Assembly: GCA_024643795.1 (NCBI GenBank)
Contig: JAHEMF010000002.1
Location: forward strand, 1 to 64,000
Direction: 5' to 3'
Length of the DNA: 64,000 nt
Origin: Bacteroidota bacterium
Lineage (GTDB): Bacteria; Bacteroidota; Bacteroidia; AKYH767-A; OLB10
A model generated the notes under the pieces. The model ran no database searches, was not told the origin of the DNA, and was given only the letters and a program-made list of their open reading frames with translations. Positions 2,084-56,865 of the stretch are shown piece after piece. Each line of letters begins with the position of its first letter. The first letter of the stretch is position 1. Made by a program: the position numbers and the translations under genes.

Positions 2084-2854
2084 TTATTTCGCCGCATTAG
2101 AAAAATTTAAAAATTGACGAAGTACGCATTCAGGGTTATCTGCATGCAACCAATGTCCTGAATTTTCACAAGTTTCAACATTAACACTGTTGAATGTGAG
2201 GTAAATATTCTTTTCATCCTCATATGTAATATAATCTGAGCGGTCACCTTTCATAAATAGTGTAGGTGTTGTGACAGGTGAATTAAAAGTTACAGCCTGG
2301 CCTACATTTTCAATTTTATCACTGATCACATTCAAATTAAATCGCCAGTTGTATCCATGCTCTGTTCGATACAGGTTTTTTAACAGAAATTGCCTGACCA
2401 CTACCTCAGGGATACCTGCTTTCAAAATATTATCAGCACCCTGTCTGGAATCAATATTTTTCAGATCTACATTTCTTAAGCTCTGAATGATCCGTTGATG
2501 GTGCACCGGGTAGTAACGGGGGGCAATATCAAGAACTACCATCCCTTTCAGGAGTTCCGGATGAGCTTTACCAACTTCCAGGGCCACTTTCCCGCCAAGG
2601 GAGTGGCCTATCAGAAAAATTTTATCAAGTCCGAGATTCCTGATCAGCACATTGATATCTCTGGCCATTGATTCAAGAGTGAATTCAGGGTCATGGAATG
2701 ATCGCCCATGGTTTCGCAGGTCGGCAGTGATCACCTTAAAGTTGTATTCACTCAATTGACGGGCAAATCCCTGCCAGTTGTCCAGAGAGCCAAAGAGTCC
2801 ATGAAGTATGATCACCGGAAAGCCATTTCCAATGATTTTATGATTTAGTATCAT
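2084..2854 (-). CDS. alpha/beta hydrolase (YbfF-like esterase)
   Basis: A 256-residue cytosolic alpha/beta-hydrolase. Visible landmarks are the oxyanion region ILHGLFGSLDNW, the nucleophile elbow GHSLGGK around residue 94, a likely acid in MKGDRSDY and the catalytic His in NSGHWLH near the C-terminus. The order HGLFGS..DNW..DLRNHGRS..GHSLGGK resembles the YbfF/acyl-CoA-thioesterase-like group. The reading frame extends 11 codons further upstream, but ATG 2854 directly before ILNHKIIGNG fits the family N-terminus best. The physiological substrate is unknown. Confidence 0.8.
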   Translation of the reverse strand: MILNHKIIGNGFPVIILHGLFGSLDNWQGFARQLSEYNFKVITADLRNHGRSFHDPEFTLESMARDINVLIRNLGLDKIFLIGHSLGGKVALEVGKAHPELLKGMVVLDIAPRYYPVHHQRIIQSLRNVDLKNIDSRQGADNILKAGIPEVVVRQFLLKNLYRTEHGYNWRFNLNVISDKIENVGQAVTFNSPVTTPTLFMKGDRSDYITYEDEKNIYLTFNSVNVETCENSGHWLHADNPECVLRQFLNFSNAAK

Positions 2855-2916
2855 GCCGTAAAAATAACATAAGCTAAGAGAATACACTTTTAGGTTTCAA
2901 TAGCCTTCAATTATTG

Positions 2917-2924
2917 TAATTTTG
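2917..2924 (+). promoter_or_regulatory. -7 promoter box of the GNAT/aspartate kinase/ctaA operon
   Basis: TAATTTTG matches the Bacteroidota -7 consensus TAnnTTTG and ends 7 bases before the ATG at 2932. No clear TTG -33 element was seen at the usual distance. The predicted mRNA leader is almost absent. Confidence 0.5.
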
Positions 2925-2931
2925 TAACCCC

Positions 2932-3405
2932 ATGAAAGATATCAGGATACGAAAAGGAACTACGGAAGATCTTACTGCAGTGCTGGAGTTGATCAGAGAA
3001 CTTGCCGAGTTTGAAAAGGCCCCGGAAGAGGTTACTAATAATGTTGCAGCAATGATCGAAGACTTTACAGGAAGTTCTCCTGTATTTAAACTACTGGTTG
3101 CTACAAAGGAGGATGAGTTGGTAGGAATGGCAATTTATTTCACTAAATATTCTACCTGGAAAGGTAAAGGTGTTTATTTGGATGATATTGTTGTTAAAGA
3201 GCAGTATAGAAGAAAAGGAATAGGCAAACAATTATTTGATGCTCTGGTGCGAGAATCAAAAGTACTTGGTGCTAAACAATTGCATTGGCAGGTGCTCGAC
3301 TGGAATTCTGATGCGATCGATTTTTATAAAAAGTATGATGCAGAATTAGATTCAGAGTGGATCAATTGTAAACTTACAGAAGAGCAAATTAATAATTTTA
3401 AATGA
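2932..3405 (+). CDS. GNAT family N-acetyltransferase (diamine acetyltransferase-like)
   Basis: A 157-residue GNAT acetyltransferase that would transfer an acetyl group from acetyl-CoA to an amine. Motif A is clear: YLDDIVVKEQYRRKGIGKQL (residues about 83-102, with the R/Q-x-x-G-x-G/A pyrophosphate loop), followed by QVLDWNSDAIDFYKK, the motif B region. The N-terminal IRKGTTEDLTAVLELIRELA and the LDWN..AIDFYKK.GA-like tail resemble spermidine/spermine and thialysine acetyltransferases, so a diamine or amino acid is a plausible substrate (inference). Its stop overlaps the start of the aspartate kinase gene by 4 bases (ATGA). Confidence 0.82.
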   Translation: MKDIRIRKGTTEDLTAVLELIRELAEFEKAPEEVTNNVAAMIEDFTGSSPVFKLLVATKEDELVGMAIYFTKYSTWKGKGVYLDDIVVKEQYRRKGIGKQLFDALVRESKVLGAKQLHWQVLDWNSDAIDFYKKYDAELDSEWINCKLTEEQINNFK

Positions 3406-51890: not shown

Positions 51891-52865
51891 ATGCACACGT
51901 CAGCTGAACTGAGGAAAGTTATAGATACAGCTCTTGCAGATCTGAAAATAAAGGATCATCCAAAAGATCTGTATGATCCGATCAAATACATGCTATCGCT
52001 CGAGGCCAAGCGGATGCGACCTGTACTCCTTATGATAGGTTGCGACATGTTTAAGGGCGATATCAGTGAAGCCTTACCGTGTGCGCTGGCCATAGAGGTG
52101 TTCCACAACTTCACATTGTTGCATGATGATATTATGGACAATGCACCGCTCCGCCGTTCACAACAAACTGTTCACGAACGCTGGAATAACAACGTGGCTA
52201 TACTCTCGGGTGATACCATGTTTGTTATGGCATGTCAGCTCATGATGAAAGCCCCGGATGCTTGTTTGCGTGATGTTATGGACCTCTTCCTGCTTACATC
52301 TGCTGAGGTATGTGAAGGCCAGCAACTGGATATGGATTTCGAAAAAATGGATATAGTTGGAATTGATGATTATATTAGAATGATCAGCTTTAAAACGGCA
52401 GTATTGTTGGCTGCCAGTTTAAAGATCGGGGCGAAGATCGCCGGTGCGCCGGAGAGGGAGGCAGATCATCTTTATGAATTTGGAAGAAATATTGGAATAG
52501 CATTTCAGTTGAAAGATGATATTTTGGATGTGTTTGGCGACTCTCAACTTTTTGGCAAGCAGCAAGGCGGAGATATTTTATCGGATAAAAAAACTTTTTT
52601 ACTTCTGAAGGCAATGGAATTATCGGGAGCTGAAGAACAAAAGGTGATGAAGAGCTGGATTAACAATGCCGATAATGACCCAGTAGGAAAGGTCAGAGCC
52701 ATTACCGAAATATATGAGAGTTTAGGTATCAAAGACCTTGCAGAAAAGGAGATGGAGAAGTATTATAACATTGCCATGAGCCATTTGAATGAAGTAAATG
52801 TTGAAAGCATAAATAAGCAATCACTTCAGGAATTTGCTGGGAAACTCATGGTGAGGCAATCTTAA
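51891..52865 (+). CDS. polyprenyl diphosphate synthase (short-chain, FPP/GGPP type)
   Basis: A 324-residue trans-prenyltransferase that condenses IPP with allylic diphosphates. The first aspartate motif DDIMD is at 79-83, the second DDILD at 208-212, with AKRMRPVLLM near 40 for IPP binding. The residue five before the first motif is Phe (F74 in FTLLHDD), a bulky side chain that usually limits products to C15-C20 rather than long quinone chains. It may therefore feed carotenoid or polyprenyl synthesis (inference). It lies convergent to the photolyase operon. Confidence 0.87.
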   Translation: MHTSAELRKVIDTALADLKIKDHPKDLYDPIKYMLSLEAKRMRPVLLMIGCDMFKGDISEALPCALAIEVFHNFTLLHDDIMDNAPLRRSQQTVHERWNNNVAILSGDTMFVMACQLMMKAPDACLRDVMDLFLLTSAEVCEGQQLDMDFEKMDIVGIDDYIRMISFKTAVLLAASLKIGAKIAGAPEREADHLYEFGRNIGIAFQLKDDILDVFGDSQLFGKQQGGDILSDKKTFLLLKAMELSGAEEQKVMKSWINNADNDPVGKVRAITEIYESLGIKDLAEKEMEKYYNIAMSHLNEVNVESINKQSLQEFAGKLMVRQS

Positions 52866-52883: not shown

Positions 52884-54197
52884 TCATTTTTCAGCTAGCG
52901 TTTTTTTATATGTGCTAAGGCATCGTTCACGAGCAAATTTGTGCTCAACAATAGCATCAGGATATTCTGGTTCCTGGAATTCGGGAACCCACTTTTTTAT
53001 ATAAGAAAATTCAGGATCGAATTTTCTTGTTTGTTCATACGGATTAAATATCCTGAAATAGGGTGCAGCATCGCATCCTGAACCTGCTGCCCATTGCCAC
53101 CCTCCATTGTTGGAGGAAAGTTCAAAGTCAAGCAATTTTTCTGCAAAATATGCTTCACCCCAACGCCAATCGATAAGCAAATGCTTGGTAAGAAAACTGG
53201 CAGTTATCATACGTAAACGGTTGTGCATGAATCCTGTTGTATTCAGTTGTCGCATACCGGCATCAACTATAGGGTATCCAGTTTTCCCCTGGCACCACCT
53301 ATCAAATTCTGCTTCATTGTTTCTCCAGGTTAAACGATCATAATCTTTCTTGAATGCGCTATCTACAACATATGGGAAATGCCACATGATCATCATATAA
53401 AATTCCCGCCAGATGAGTTCATTTAACCAGGTTTGCGAACCAACTTCCAATGCCTTTGAAACAAGTTGTCTGATGCTTACCGTTCCAAATCGTAAATGAA
53501 CACTCACATGACTGGTCGCATCCATTGCAGGGTAGTCTCGATTTTCATGATACGCTTTGAGTAATGAATCTCCCAGATTTGGAGAAGGTACTTTGAGGTC
53601 TGAGGCTTTAAATCCAAATGATTCCAGTTTAGGATACTCAGCACTTTCCATGGGGGAAAAACAATTGTTATTTATGGGGAAGTTTGAACCAGCATGAAAA
53701 TTAGGGTCCAGCTTATCAAGCCACCTGTTCTTATAGGGTGTAAAAACCACATAAGGAGTCCCATTATCTTTTAAAATATCTGACCTTTCAAATATCACCT
53801 GGTCTTTGAAGGTATGAAACTCTATTCCTTGTGAGTTAAGTAGTTCTTTAACTTTATAGTCTCTTTTGGTAGCATAAGGTTCATAATCATGATTTGTGTA
53901 TACGGCATGCACCGGAAATTCTGACAAGATTTTTTTCCATTCTTCTGTCGGTTCCCCATACCTTATCATCAAACCTGACCCATAATCTTGTAATGTATTG
54001 TGGATAGATAGTAACTGATTATAAATGAATGTGACCCTTGCATCATGTTTGTTTGTGAGCTTGTCCAGGATGTTTTTGTCAAATATGAATAAACACTGAA
54101 CCTTGAAACCAGATCGCAATGCTTGCTGCAATGCAGTGTTATCATCTAAACGAAGGTCGCGCCTGAACCAGAAGAAAACCGGTTTTGGGTTTCCCAT
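52884..54197 (-). CDS. phrB: deoxyribodipyrimidine photolyase
   Basis: A 437-residue class I photolyase/cryptochrome that repairs cyclobutane pyrimidine dimers using blue light and FAD. The N-terminal antenna domain starts FFWFRRDLRLDDNTAL. The FAD domain contains LIWREFYMMIMWHFP, GYPIVDAGMRQLNTTGFMHNRLRM (Trp/His region, about 310-333; longer than quoted elsewhere), then GGWQWAAGSGCDAAPYFRIF with FNPYEQTRKFDP. These are the features of true CPD photolyases rather than DASH cryptochromes. It is the second gene of an operon with the TIGR01777 oxidoreductase (1-base gap), next to a B12-photoreceptor regulator. Confidence 0.92.
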   Translation of the reverse strand: MGNPKPVFFWFRRDLRLDDNTALQQALRSGFKVQCLFIFDKNILDKLTNKHDARVTFIYNQLLSIHNTLQDYGSGLMIRYGEPTEEWKKILSEFPVHAVYTNHDYEPYATKRDYKVKELLNSQGIEFHTFKDQVIFERSDILKDNGTPYVVFTPYKNRWLDKLDPNFHAGSNFPINNNCFSPMESAEYPKLESFGFKASDLKVPSPNLGDSLLKAYHENRDYPAMDATSHVSVHLRFGTVSIRQLVSKALEVGSQTWLNELIWREFYMMIMWHFPYVVDSAFKKDYDRLTWRNNEAEFDRWCQGKTGYPIVDAGMRQLNTTGFMHNRLRMITASFLTKHLLIDWRWGEAYFAEKLLDFELSSNNGGWQWAAGSGCDAAPYFRIFNPYEQTRKFDPEFSYIKKWVPEFQEPEYPDAIVEHKFARERCLSTYKKTLAEK

Positions 54198-54198
54198 A

Positions 54199-55110
54199 TC
54201 AGTTAATAAGGTTTTTTATGGCTTTATCAGCTCTGTCGAACTTAAACTTAAATCCGGCTTTTATTATCTTCTCGGAAGATGCCCGGCTTCCTTCGGTTAG
54301 GAGAATTGCCATGCCACCCAGAAATAATTTTAGAATAGGCGCAGGTACCCGAACGGTCAAATAAAGGCCGCCAAGGACCTGTTTGAAAAGGGTCACCAAA
54401 TTCCGCATGCTTAGTGGGCCAGGCGACACAGCATTGTAAGTGCCACGGAATTGATTCTGGCTAATACAGGCTGATATCAGGCAACACAGATCTTCAATAT
54501 GTATCCAGCTTAAATATTGTTCTCCAGTTCCATAAACCGGAGCTATTCTGAACTTAAAAGGGATAAGTGTAGTGGGGAAAAATCCACCCTCCTTTGCAAG
54601 CACATTTCCAATTCTTAAGATAACATTTCTGACTTCAGGTGAAGCTTTTTCTGATTCAGCTTCCCAACGAGTGCATACATTTCCAAGAAAATTTGTAACG
54701 GCAGGACTGTCTTCATGCACTATTGACATACCTGTATCACCATAGATACCGGTTGCTGAAGAGTGAATCATTACCTTAACCTCTGATCCGGCACTTTTTA
54801 CTTTATTAACTAAAAGCCGGGTCGATATTACTCTGCTGTTCATGATCTCCCGCTTTCGCCATGGTGTCCATAAGCTGTCAGCAATTCCGGCACCACTCAA
54901 ATTTACCACAGCTTCTACACCATTCAATGCCTCATCATCAAACTCGTTTTTCATGGGGTCCCAATGGAATACGTTTTCTGAGGGTCTCGAAGGGCCTCTT
55001 GTCAGGATCTTGATCTTGTATCCGGAGGCGGCCAAAAGCAATGAAAGGTGTTGACCTACAAGGCCGGATCCGCCGGCTATTAGAACAGATTTATTGCGAT
55101 TCAACTGCAC
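54199..55110 (-). CDS. TIGR01777 family SDR oxidoreductase (YfcH-like)
   Basis: A 303-residue epimerase-like SDR protein. The NAD(P) site VLIAGGSGLVGQHLS opens the protein; VNLSGAGIADSLWTPWRKRE, IHSSATGIYGD and SWIHIEDLCCLI are TIGR01777 signatures. A C-terminal DUF1731-like tail is present (LGGMAILLTEGSRASSEKII). Its reaction is unknown. The start is GTG at 55110. It shares a divergent intergenic region with the ferredoxin-photoreceptor operon and leads the photolyase gene. Members of this family are known to me from light-induced regulons next to photolyases. Confidence 0.87.
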   Translation of the reverse strand: MQLNRNKSVLIAGGSGLVGQHLSLLLAASGYKIKILTRGPSRPSENVFHWDPMKNEFDDEALNGVEAVVNLSGAGIADSLWTPWRKREIMNSRVISTRLLVNKVKSAGSEVKVMIHSSATGIYGDTGMSIVHEDSPAVTNFLGNVCTRWEAESEKASPEVRNVILRIGNVLAKEGGFFPTTLIPFKFRIAPVYGTGEQYLSWIHIEDLCCLISACISQNQFRGTYNAVSPGPLSMRNLVTLFKQVLGGLYLTVRVPAPILKLFLGGMAILLTEGSRASSEKIIKAGFKFKFDRADKAIKNLIN

Positions 55111-55274
55111 AAATATTTAACAAAATCCCACAAGTATAAGTTTTGATCAGGCCCTTAGGCCCTCAGGTGCCTCAAAATTAACGTATTTTGTTGAGTCAAT
55201 TTGTTGAAAACTTTAACAACTCTCATTGGTTTAACTATTATCAAACACTAATGTTAAGCCTAAATTTGTTGAAT
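55111..55274. promoter_or_regulatory. divergent regulatory region of the light-response locus
   Basis: This 164-base region separates the oxidoreductase-photolyase operon from the ferredoxin-photoreceptor operon. TTGTTGA occurs at 55188-55194, 55201-55207 and 55266-55272; TAACAA-type inverted copies are at 55214-55220 and 55118-55123. A GC-rich patch has overlapping direct copies of GGCCCTYAGG (55150-55159 and 55158-55167). MerR-type CarH proteins bind direct repeats, so these are candidate operators; which of them is used is not known. Confidence 0.5.
55261..55268 (+). promoter_or_regulatory. -7 promoter box of the ferredoxin-photoreceptor operon
   Basis: TAAATTTG, a full TAnnTTTG match, overlaps the third TTGTTGA copy and ends 6 bases before ATG 55275. 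A repressor bound at the repeat would block it. Confidence 0.45.
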
Positions 55275-55610
55275 ATGAAGTATAAGAAGCATGTTTTTAT
55301 TTGTACCAACCAGCGTCCTGATGGAAGTAGAGTATGTTGTGGTGAACAGCATGGGCTTGAATTAGTGCGTGAATTTAAGAAGCAAATAAAAGACAGGGGG
55401 TTGAATACCGAGATCCGTGCTCAAAAGGCTGGATGTATGGATACTTGTGAACTGGGTCCTAGTGTAGTGGTGTACCCTGAAGGAGTATTTTATGGTGGTG
55501 TAAATACCACAGATGTTAATGAAATTGTAGAAAGTCACCTAAAAAATGATAGGGTAGTTGAAAGGCTGGTTATGAATTTTGATGCTGATGACACAAAATC
55601 AGGAAATTGA
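55275..55610 (+). CDS. thioredoxin-like [2Fe-2S] ferredoxin
   Basis: A 111-residue protein of the thioredoxin-fold ferredoxin family. The cluster ligands are visible as C10, C21 or C22, C54 and C58 (HVFICTNQ; RVCCGEQHG; KAGCMDTCELGPSVVVYPEG). It should carry electrons in the cytosol; the partner is unknown. The frame is open upstream to 55188, but ATG 55275 begins the conserved KHVFICTNQRP strand. It is the first gene of a run with a 120-residue unknown and a B12-photoreceptor regulator, so redox chemistry may be part of the light response (inference). Confidence 0.85.
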   Translation: MKYKKHVFICTNQRPDGSRVCCGEQHGLELVREFKKQIKDRGLNTEIRAQKAGCMDTCELGPSVVVYPEGVFYGGVNTTDVNEIVESHLKNDRVVERLVMNFDADDTKSGN

Positions 55611-55944
55611 GAAGTACCGGAATGACCTGGAGGTTATCAGAAACACGGCAGAGCAGGTTATCAAAGATTTTGACCTCTATGGTCATAATATAACCTTCTC
55701 AGGTGATGAGTCCATGGCATACCGGGAACTTGAACAGCAATTGGTTCCATTGCTCGAAACTGTTTACAAGAGATCTGGAAGTGAATTCAGGAATCTGATG
55801 TATAGAATAGATGTAAGTGAAACTGATGCAAACAAGGCACTCGAATACCCTGATGAACGGGGAAGATTTTTGCAATTAGCAGGTCTGGTGCTTGAGCGCG
55901 AATTTATGAAATGTGTGACCAGAAAGTTATTTAGTAGTAAGTAG
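55582..55944 (+). CDS. conserved-looking small protein, unknown function
   Basis: A 120-residue soluble protein with a mostly helical, charged sequence. The start region (QEIEKYRNDLEVIRNTAEQV) could form a coiled coil. GHNITFSGDESMAYRELEQQ and a C-terminal helix (GRFLQLAGLVLEREFMKCV) are recognisable but match no family I can name. It overlaps the ferredoxin gene by about 29 bases and ends 39 bases before the photoreceptor gene, so it is probably co-transcribed with both. Starts at 55582 or 55588 are equally possible. No catalytic motif is visible. Confidence 0.65.
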   Translation: MLMTQNQEIEKYRNDLEVIRNTAEQVIKDFDLYGHNITFSGDESMAYRELEQQLVPLLETVYKRSGSEFRNLMYRIDVSETDANKALEYPDERGRFLQLAGLVLEREFMKCVTRKLFSSK

Positions 55945-55983: not shown

Positions 55984-56865
55984 ATGAATAATTTCACCAT
56001 AAAAGATATAGAGAATTTGACTGGTATCAAGTCTCATACTCTCAGGATCTGGGAGCAAAGGTATGGTATACCTAATCCAAAACGAACTTCTACAAATATC
56101 CGGTTTTACGATAACGACGACCTGAAGCTGTTGCTGAATGTATCACTTTTGAACCGCAAGGGACATAAAATATCTCACATTACTGCTTTGTCGAAAGAGG
56201 AAATGGAAAAAATGATCCTTTCCTATTCATCCGAAACCACGGATACGAATGTTCAACTCGATTGTCTGATGTCTGCTATGTTCAACTTAGATGAAGCAGC
56301 TTTTGAAAGGATGCTTTCCACTCATTTGATGAAACAGGGTCTTGAGAAAACATTACTTGAACTGTTTTTCCCATTTCTTAATAAGATCGGGTTTTTGTGG
56401 CAAGCCGGACAGGTTCATCCTGCATTCGAACATTTTTTGAGTAACCTGATCAGACAAAAGGTGATAGTTGCCATAGATGCACAGTCAGCAGCAAGAAAAA
56501 AAGATGCTAAAACTTTTGTCTTGTACCTGCCTTCAAGTGAGATGCATGAACTGGGATTGTTATTTGCAAATTATCTCATACGCTCACGCGGACATCACTC
56601 GATCTATCTGGGTCAGAACTTACCATGTCCTGAATTAAAGCTGATATTGGATAAGTGTAATAGCGACTACATACTTACAGTTCTAACCAATGCGCAGGAT
56701 GATATTCAAAAGTTCATCAACGATCTCTCATCCCAATACTCTGACAAACAGATAATCATTTCAGGCAGGCAGGTATGTATGGCACAATCACTGAAGGCTC
56801 CTAAAAATGTGACATTGGTTTATGATATGAAAGAATTGGTTGGTTTGATTGATTCTGTAAAATAG
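55984..56865 (+). CDS. CarH/LitR-like cobalamin-dependent photoreceptor regulator
   Basis: A 293-residue MerR-family regulator. Residues 1-70 form the winged-helix domain (FTIKDIENLTGIKSHTLRIW, EQRYGIPNPKRTSTNIRFY). The middle helical bundle carries W139 and E149-H150, the exact W-x9-EH spacing that caps the adenosyl group in CarH. The C-terminal B12-binding domain has E-x-H-x-x-G with the lower ligand H188, then SIYLGQNLP. CarH binds adenosylcobalamin as a dark tetramer and represses; light breaks the Co-C bond and releases DNA. Here residue 140 is Gln where the Thermus protein has the His that ligates cobalt after light. The likely target is the divergent photolyase operon. Confidence 0.87.
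   Translation: MNNFTIKDIENLTGIKSHTLRIWEQRYGIPNPKRTSTNIRFYDNDDLKLLLNVSLLNRKGHKISHITALSKEEMEKMILSYSSETTDTNVQLDCLMSAMFNLDEAAFERMLSTHLMKQGLEKTLLELFFPFLNKIGFLWQAGQVHPAFEHFLSNLIRQKVIVAIDAQSAARKKDAKTFVLYLPSSEMHELGLLFANYLIRSRGHHSIYLGQNLPCPELKLILDKCNSDYILTVLTNAQDDIQKFINDLSSQYSDKQIIISGRQVCMAQSLKAPKNVTLVYDMKELVGLIDSVK

Follow-up and report, generated by a model that had tools for sequence, protein, structure and literature searches.

The 64,000-nucleotide stretch of Bacteroidota DNA analyzed here (the window) encodes a protein that resembles CarH, the vitamin B12-based photoreceptor of Thermus thermophilus (TtCarH), but has glutamine at the position of His132, the residue that ligates cobalamin in the bis-His light state of TtCarH. 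Could such a protein still act as a light-controlled repressor, and if so, through which light state and on which genes?

A CarH-like regulator with Gln at the His132 position

The gene is an intact 293-codon open reading frame at positions 55984 to 56865 on the plus strand, the only CarH-like gene found in the window's genome, and Pfam recognizes a MerR_1 helix-turn-helix domain (residues 4 to 70) and a B12-binding_2 domain (residues 97 to 160) in its 293-residue product. Pfam found no further domain in these 293 residues, including the C-terminal biliverdin-binding globin of photocobilins. When the protein was compared with PDB sequences using phmmer, TtCarH was the best relative (E value of 1e-22), and the alignment pairs W139 with W131, Q140 with H132, E149-H150 with E141-H142, and H188 with H177. 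The corresponding plus-strand codons, read directly, are TGG CAA for W139-Q140 (56398 to 56403), GAA CAT for E149-H150 (56428 to 56433), and GAG ATG CAT for E186-M187-H188 (56539 to 56547), with H188 as the predicted lower axial ligand. In a Foldseek search using an AF2 model of the protein (pLDDT of 93.4; pTM of 0.86), CarH structures ranked at the top and CtMerR of Chloracidobacterium thermophilum was also matched. Because codons, Pfam domains, alignment, and structural matches agree, we take the observation made in a preliminary description of this DNA to be real: the protein has W139-x9-E149-H150 and E-x-H188-x-x-G, and Gln140 stands in place of the light-state His.

Domain order and motifs are those of TtCarH (PDB 5C8D, 5C8E, and 5C8F), namely a MerR helix-turn-helix, a B12_2 helix bundle, and a Rossmann domain, with the Wx9EH motif shared by CarH and class I LitR proteins and the lower-ligand motif D/ExHx2G (here E186-M-H188-E-L-G191). 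The recognition helix reads RIWEQRY, one substitution away from an RxWERRY-like sequence. The preliminary description had credited the protein with the full B12-binding motif set, which holds for ExHx2G and not for two other elements: the downstream motif SxV/T...GG reads T-x-L...S-G, as is usual in Bacteroidota, and the SignatureFinder motif GxxH reads SxxH, with Ser for Gly. The score against the NCBIfam CarH equivalog NF052513 is 105 bits versus a cut-off of 400. Since both SxV/T...GG and this cut-off are missed, we call the protein CarH-like rather than a strict CarH; the broader CarH/LitR-like assignment is supported by the motifs, the best phmmer match, and Foldseek. Identity to TtCarH is only about 24% over the whole length, and the TtCarH interface residues R176, D201, and G160 are replaced by M187, N212, and Ser, respectively, so that the R176-D201 pair is absent and the oligomer may differ from that of TtCarH. 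Judged by the sequence features that matter for capping adenosylcobalamin (AdoCbl), the protein is predicted to work like CarH, repressing genes with the help of vitamin B12 and probably responding to light.

Position 140 across Bacteroidota

Whether Gln140 is lineage-wide was addressed by alignment. Relatives were gathered from 61 related whole genomes and, via an alignment query, from 80 named contigs, using search patterns for the contigs that did not include residue 140. Among the resulting 126 Bacteroidota-type sequences, at least four appear twice, as identical rows from organisms present in both collections, and one contig, labelled Thalassovita, is probably a binning error. The Trp, Glu, His, and axial His are all kept in 120 of the 126, and position 140 in these is Gln (85), Leu (14), Val (6), Gly (4), Ile (4), Met (3), Ala (2), Ser (1), or Thr (1) and never His. 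To lower the bias toward close relatives, we also drew 198 genomes evenly from the phylum and read 40 further genes, 34 of them motif-intact; among these 34, Gln occurs 14 times and His not once. Combined, His is found at position 140 in 0 of 154 motif-intact Bacteroidota sequences, and Gln is the commonest residue (99). Gln140, initially regarded as an unusual substitution, is thus the usual residue in Bacteroidota. The partner residue is gone as well: Glu129 of TtCarH, proposed to accept a proton from His132 (PMC4557120), is mostly Ile, Val, Leu, or Met in Bacteroidota and Phe in the window protein, so the His132/Glu129 pair is missing together.

Among ten plasmid-borne outgroup sequences, only the two from Thermus have His, and the eight from Proteobacteria have Arg, Glu, Gln, Thr, or Ala. 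Many myxobacterial CarH proteins carry the His (PMC9304148), which is therefore not unique to Thermus. In a tree, Gln is scattered through the Bacteroidota part, with repeated change; we claim no ancestral state because the deep Bacteroidota branches are weak and the outgroup branches long. Only one of the Bacteroidota homologues seen, encoded on a Persicobacter plasmid (L050), has a His following the Trp; this protein is degenerate and has no EH motif, yet a dyad of the kind described below is kept upstream. A match in a phage collection (L051) is a weak, partial one to an unannotated scaffold.

The same alignments bear on whether the protein needs B12 at all. Relatives that act independently of B12, such as Myxococcus xanthus CarA and class II LitR, are known (PMC9304148, PMC9758184), with light sensed through a partner protein, and the motifs have been lost in some homologues of the phylum sample. 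Four homologues of that sample (L192, L202, L203, and L205) are without the EH motif, the axial His, or both, and two of the four have lost the Trp too; by sequence they resemble a CarA-like branch. CarA, however, lacks the Trp of Wx9EH and class II LitR the Rossmann half, whereas the window protein has both the Trp and the Rossmann half and keeps all four motif residues, as do the 120 relatives counted above. A B12-independent regulator is thus extremely improbable here.

Gene context and a candidate operator

The probable targets of the repressor can be read from the surrounding DNA: a DNA-repair photolyase, sigma factors, and carotenoid genes, the last of these in relatives. In the window, the gene is the third of a presumed plus-strand operon that begins with a 2Fe-2S ferredoxin-like protein (55275 to 55610), assigned from the reading frame, NCBIfam, and gene context. 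Between the two lies a small conserved protein with no Pfam or NCBIfam match (55588 to 55944), which directly precedes the CarH-like gene in 21 loci, in each case next to a Gln140 member, and does so in many genomes of the same family. Divergent from this operon, on the minus strand, Pfam and NCBIfam identify a TIGR01777-family SDR (54199 to 55110) and a class I DNA photolyase (52884 to 54197), presumably cotranscribed; both recur beside the gene in relatives. The same searches identify a polyprenyl (GGPP-type) diphosphate synthase farther along (51891 to 52865, plus strand), a neighbor whose regulatory link is putative. In the 80 named Bacteroidota loci, the genes that follow on the same strand include those for ECF-type sigma factors (43 loci; sigma domain confirmed by Pfam), crtI (23), crtB (23), ispH (20), and a lycopene-cyclase-like protein (18), and a carotenoid-hydroxylase-like gene adjoins the CarH-like gene in 26; we assigned the names ispH, cyclase, and hydroxylase ourselves from the sequences. 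Other contigs of the window's genome carry crtI-crtB and a PduO-type adenosyltransferase, which counts as a supply of AdoCbl.

Between the CarH-like gene and the ECF sigma or crt genes of relatives lies a dyad, TTTTGTTTAA-N16-TTAAACAAAA, in which the two half-sites begin 22 bp from each other (36 exact pairs). Many copies are doubled, giving half-sites that alternate at 22-bp intervals. The core TTAAACAA, on either strand, is present in all 38 carH-sigma intergenic regions, compared to about 5 expected, and 35 of the 38 scored above the threshold of a matrix built from such sites, compared to none in shuffled sequences; the dyad is also found in loci outside the training set. Of the 43 genomes that carry the gene, 26 contain exact dyads, compared to 1 of the 18 that lack it (Fisher P = 5.5e-5, uncorrected for relatedness), the single exception being an 88% complete assembly. 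A reversed-pattern control gave one match in the 61 genomes.

When the matrix was trained exclusively on other genomes, its single best match in the 64-kb window was a degenerate 22-bp-spaced dyad, TTTTGTTGA...TTTAACAACT, at 55186 to 55221, within the divergent promoter of the SDR-photolyase and ferredoxin-small protein-carH operons. None of 30 Markov-simulated windows contained a score as high, although the symmetrized score of the site, 17, is below the training-site median of 27. Dyads elsewhere in the window's genome were searched for with IUPAC patterns; loose matches, allowing three mismatches, showed no genome-wide excess over the control. In this genome, each of the two ECF sigma genes has a dyad at its start codon. 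One of them (contig C80; L164:2378-2476 and 2475-3008) has two upstream, with scores of 23.0 and 14.0, the nearer of which ends at the start codon, and its 60% identical paralogue (contig C45; L208) has one that ends at the ATG and scores 21.5. The genome's only perfect dyad (score of 26.7) lies upstream of a gene for a secreted DUF4397/Por-tail protein (contig C83; L162:3217-5005). In Caballeronia (L147), a DUF4397 gene comes after the CarH-like gene. A further match (contig C49) lies inside a gene and was set aside as chance. The matrix found no dyad in the crtI promoter of the window's genome, leaving direct control of crt genes unsupported here; such control would be indirect, via a sigma factor. 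The Thermus operator consists of tandem 11-bp direct repeats (nAnnTnnACAn), unlike the alternating 22-bp dyads. A search of the window for such repeats turned up no convincing copy; the best three-repeat score in its intergenic regions was 11 of 15, versus 15 of 15 for the Thermus operator used as a control.

Genomic association thus points to the dyad as a candidate operator of the CarH-like protein. The dyad also precedes ECF sigma genes, which often autoregulate, and could instead be bound by the sigma factor or another regulator. We regard this as unlikely, given that a symmetric, tandem, 22-bp-spaced dyad is unlike a -35/-10 element, is also found at carH and photolyase promoters, and tracks the presence of carH across genomes.

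The predicted light state and its implications

The preliminary description had proposed that the photochemical end state, and perhaps its reversibility, might differ from those of TtCarH. The first part is a reasonable prediction, and one for which precedents have been published. SignatureFinder found this position to be variable in photoactive proteins, with Arg in CtMerR, Gln in SasPcob, and Tyr in AbDPcob (PMC11796333). CtMerR (PDB 8JBS and 8JBT), like the window protein a MerR-type cobalamin-binding protein without His132, though with Arg rather than Gln and from another phylum, is converted by light from tetramer to monomer (PMC11796333). The photocobilin SasPcob shares the natural Gln and the Wx9EH motif and is known to photolyze AdoCbl (PMC11796333, PMC10979010), but it carries a globin domain that binds biliverdin, lacks a helix-turn-helix, and is not a repressor; its solved light state is monomeric, with water or hydroxide on Co(III) and the Glu-His helix shifted only modestly (PMC10979010). 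The H132A mutant of TtCarH likewise gives a hydroxo-Co(III) product yet remains mostly tetrameric in the light, contradicting an earlier report (PMC10442372).

Without the light-state His, the window protein is very unlikely to reach a bis-His end state. Another residue might take the place of His132 and still give a protein-ligated end state. H150 is conserved, and the corresponding TtCarH residue, H142, was at one time considered as a possible ligand (PMC4557120); H145 is close in sequence. Against this, H145 varies among relatives (N, T, S, G, or H), and no new conserved His, Met, or Cys near the Trp motif stood out in their alignment. As for Q140 itself, we know of no established chemistry that would lead one to expect amide ligation to cobalamin. 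The light structures of CtMerR and SasPcob are moreover of the water type despite keeping the EH residues, and we judge a substitute ligand to be highly improbable.

In principle, the switch might work less well without the His, given the largely tetrameric H132A protein (PMC10442372). The protein might then bind AdoCbl yet sense B12 or redox state rather than light, with photolysis leaving the oligomer in place and the regulator reporting AdoCbl availability; the interface residues that differ from those of TtCarH would fit such a reading. However, the natural non-His proteins CtMerR and SasPcob do change oligomeric state in light, and the genes in the vicinity are for photolyase, carotenoid synthesis, and ECF sigma factors. 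We therefore give sensing of B12 instead of light only a small chance.

We consider it likely that the protein depends on AdoCbl to repress its targets in the dark and is released by light through a His188-on aquo- or hydroxocobalamin, without bis-His ligation. In the dark, AdoCbl would be bound base-off on H188 and capped by W139, E149, and H150, and the oligomer would sit on the dyad at 55186 to 55221, holding down the SDR-photolyase operon, its own operon, and, elsewhere in the genome, the two ECF sigma genes. Green or blue light would cleave the Co-C bond, with loss of the adenosyl group, and because Q140 cannot replace His132, the predicted product is H188-Co(III)-water or -hydroxide. Instead of a bis-His clamp, a rearranged E149/H150 helix would then break the oligomer and free the promoters. 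Photolysis of CarH has been described as irreversible (PMC8156234); as a further step, the open upper face may ease exchange or re-adenosylation of the spent cobalamin.

For the phylum as a whole, we lean slightly toward a picture in which the bis-His state is absent and a CarH-like repressor on 22-bp-spaced tandem dyads switches ECF sigma, carotenoid, and photolyase genes through a water-ligated end state. Parts of this arrangement have parallels elsewhere. In Streptomyces coelicolor, a member of another phylum, the regulator LitR is similarly linked to an ECF sigma factor, LitS, that drives carotenoid genes (cited in PMC9758184). Thermus also has a photolyase gene in the locus, with carH divergent from crtB-phr. 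Light-induced carotenoid production has been reported in Chryseobacterium, with the regulator not named (PMC7064467), and in the open-access literature we found no description of CarH in Bacteroidota or of the dyad operator. The variable position 140 and the water- or hydroxide-ligated light state are already published; the regulatory part, the dyad and its presumed targets, is new. Although CarH is often depicted as working through the bis-His light state, our sample suggests that only some lineages use this solution. The large natural set of non-His proteins makes the role of His132, disputed between two published experiments, directly testable, and the dyad offers a concrete and cheap handle on the light regulon in Bacteroidota.
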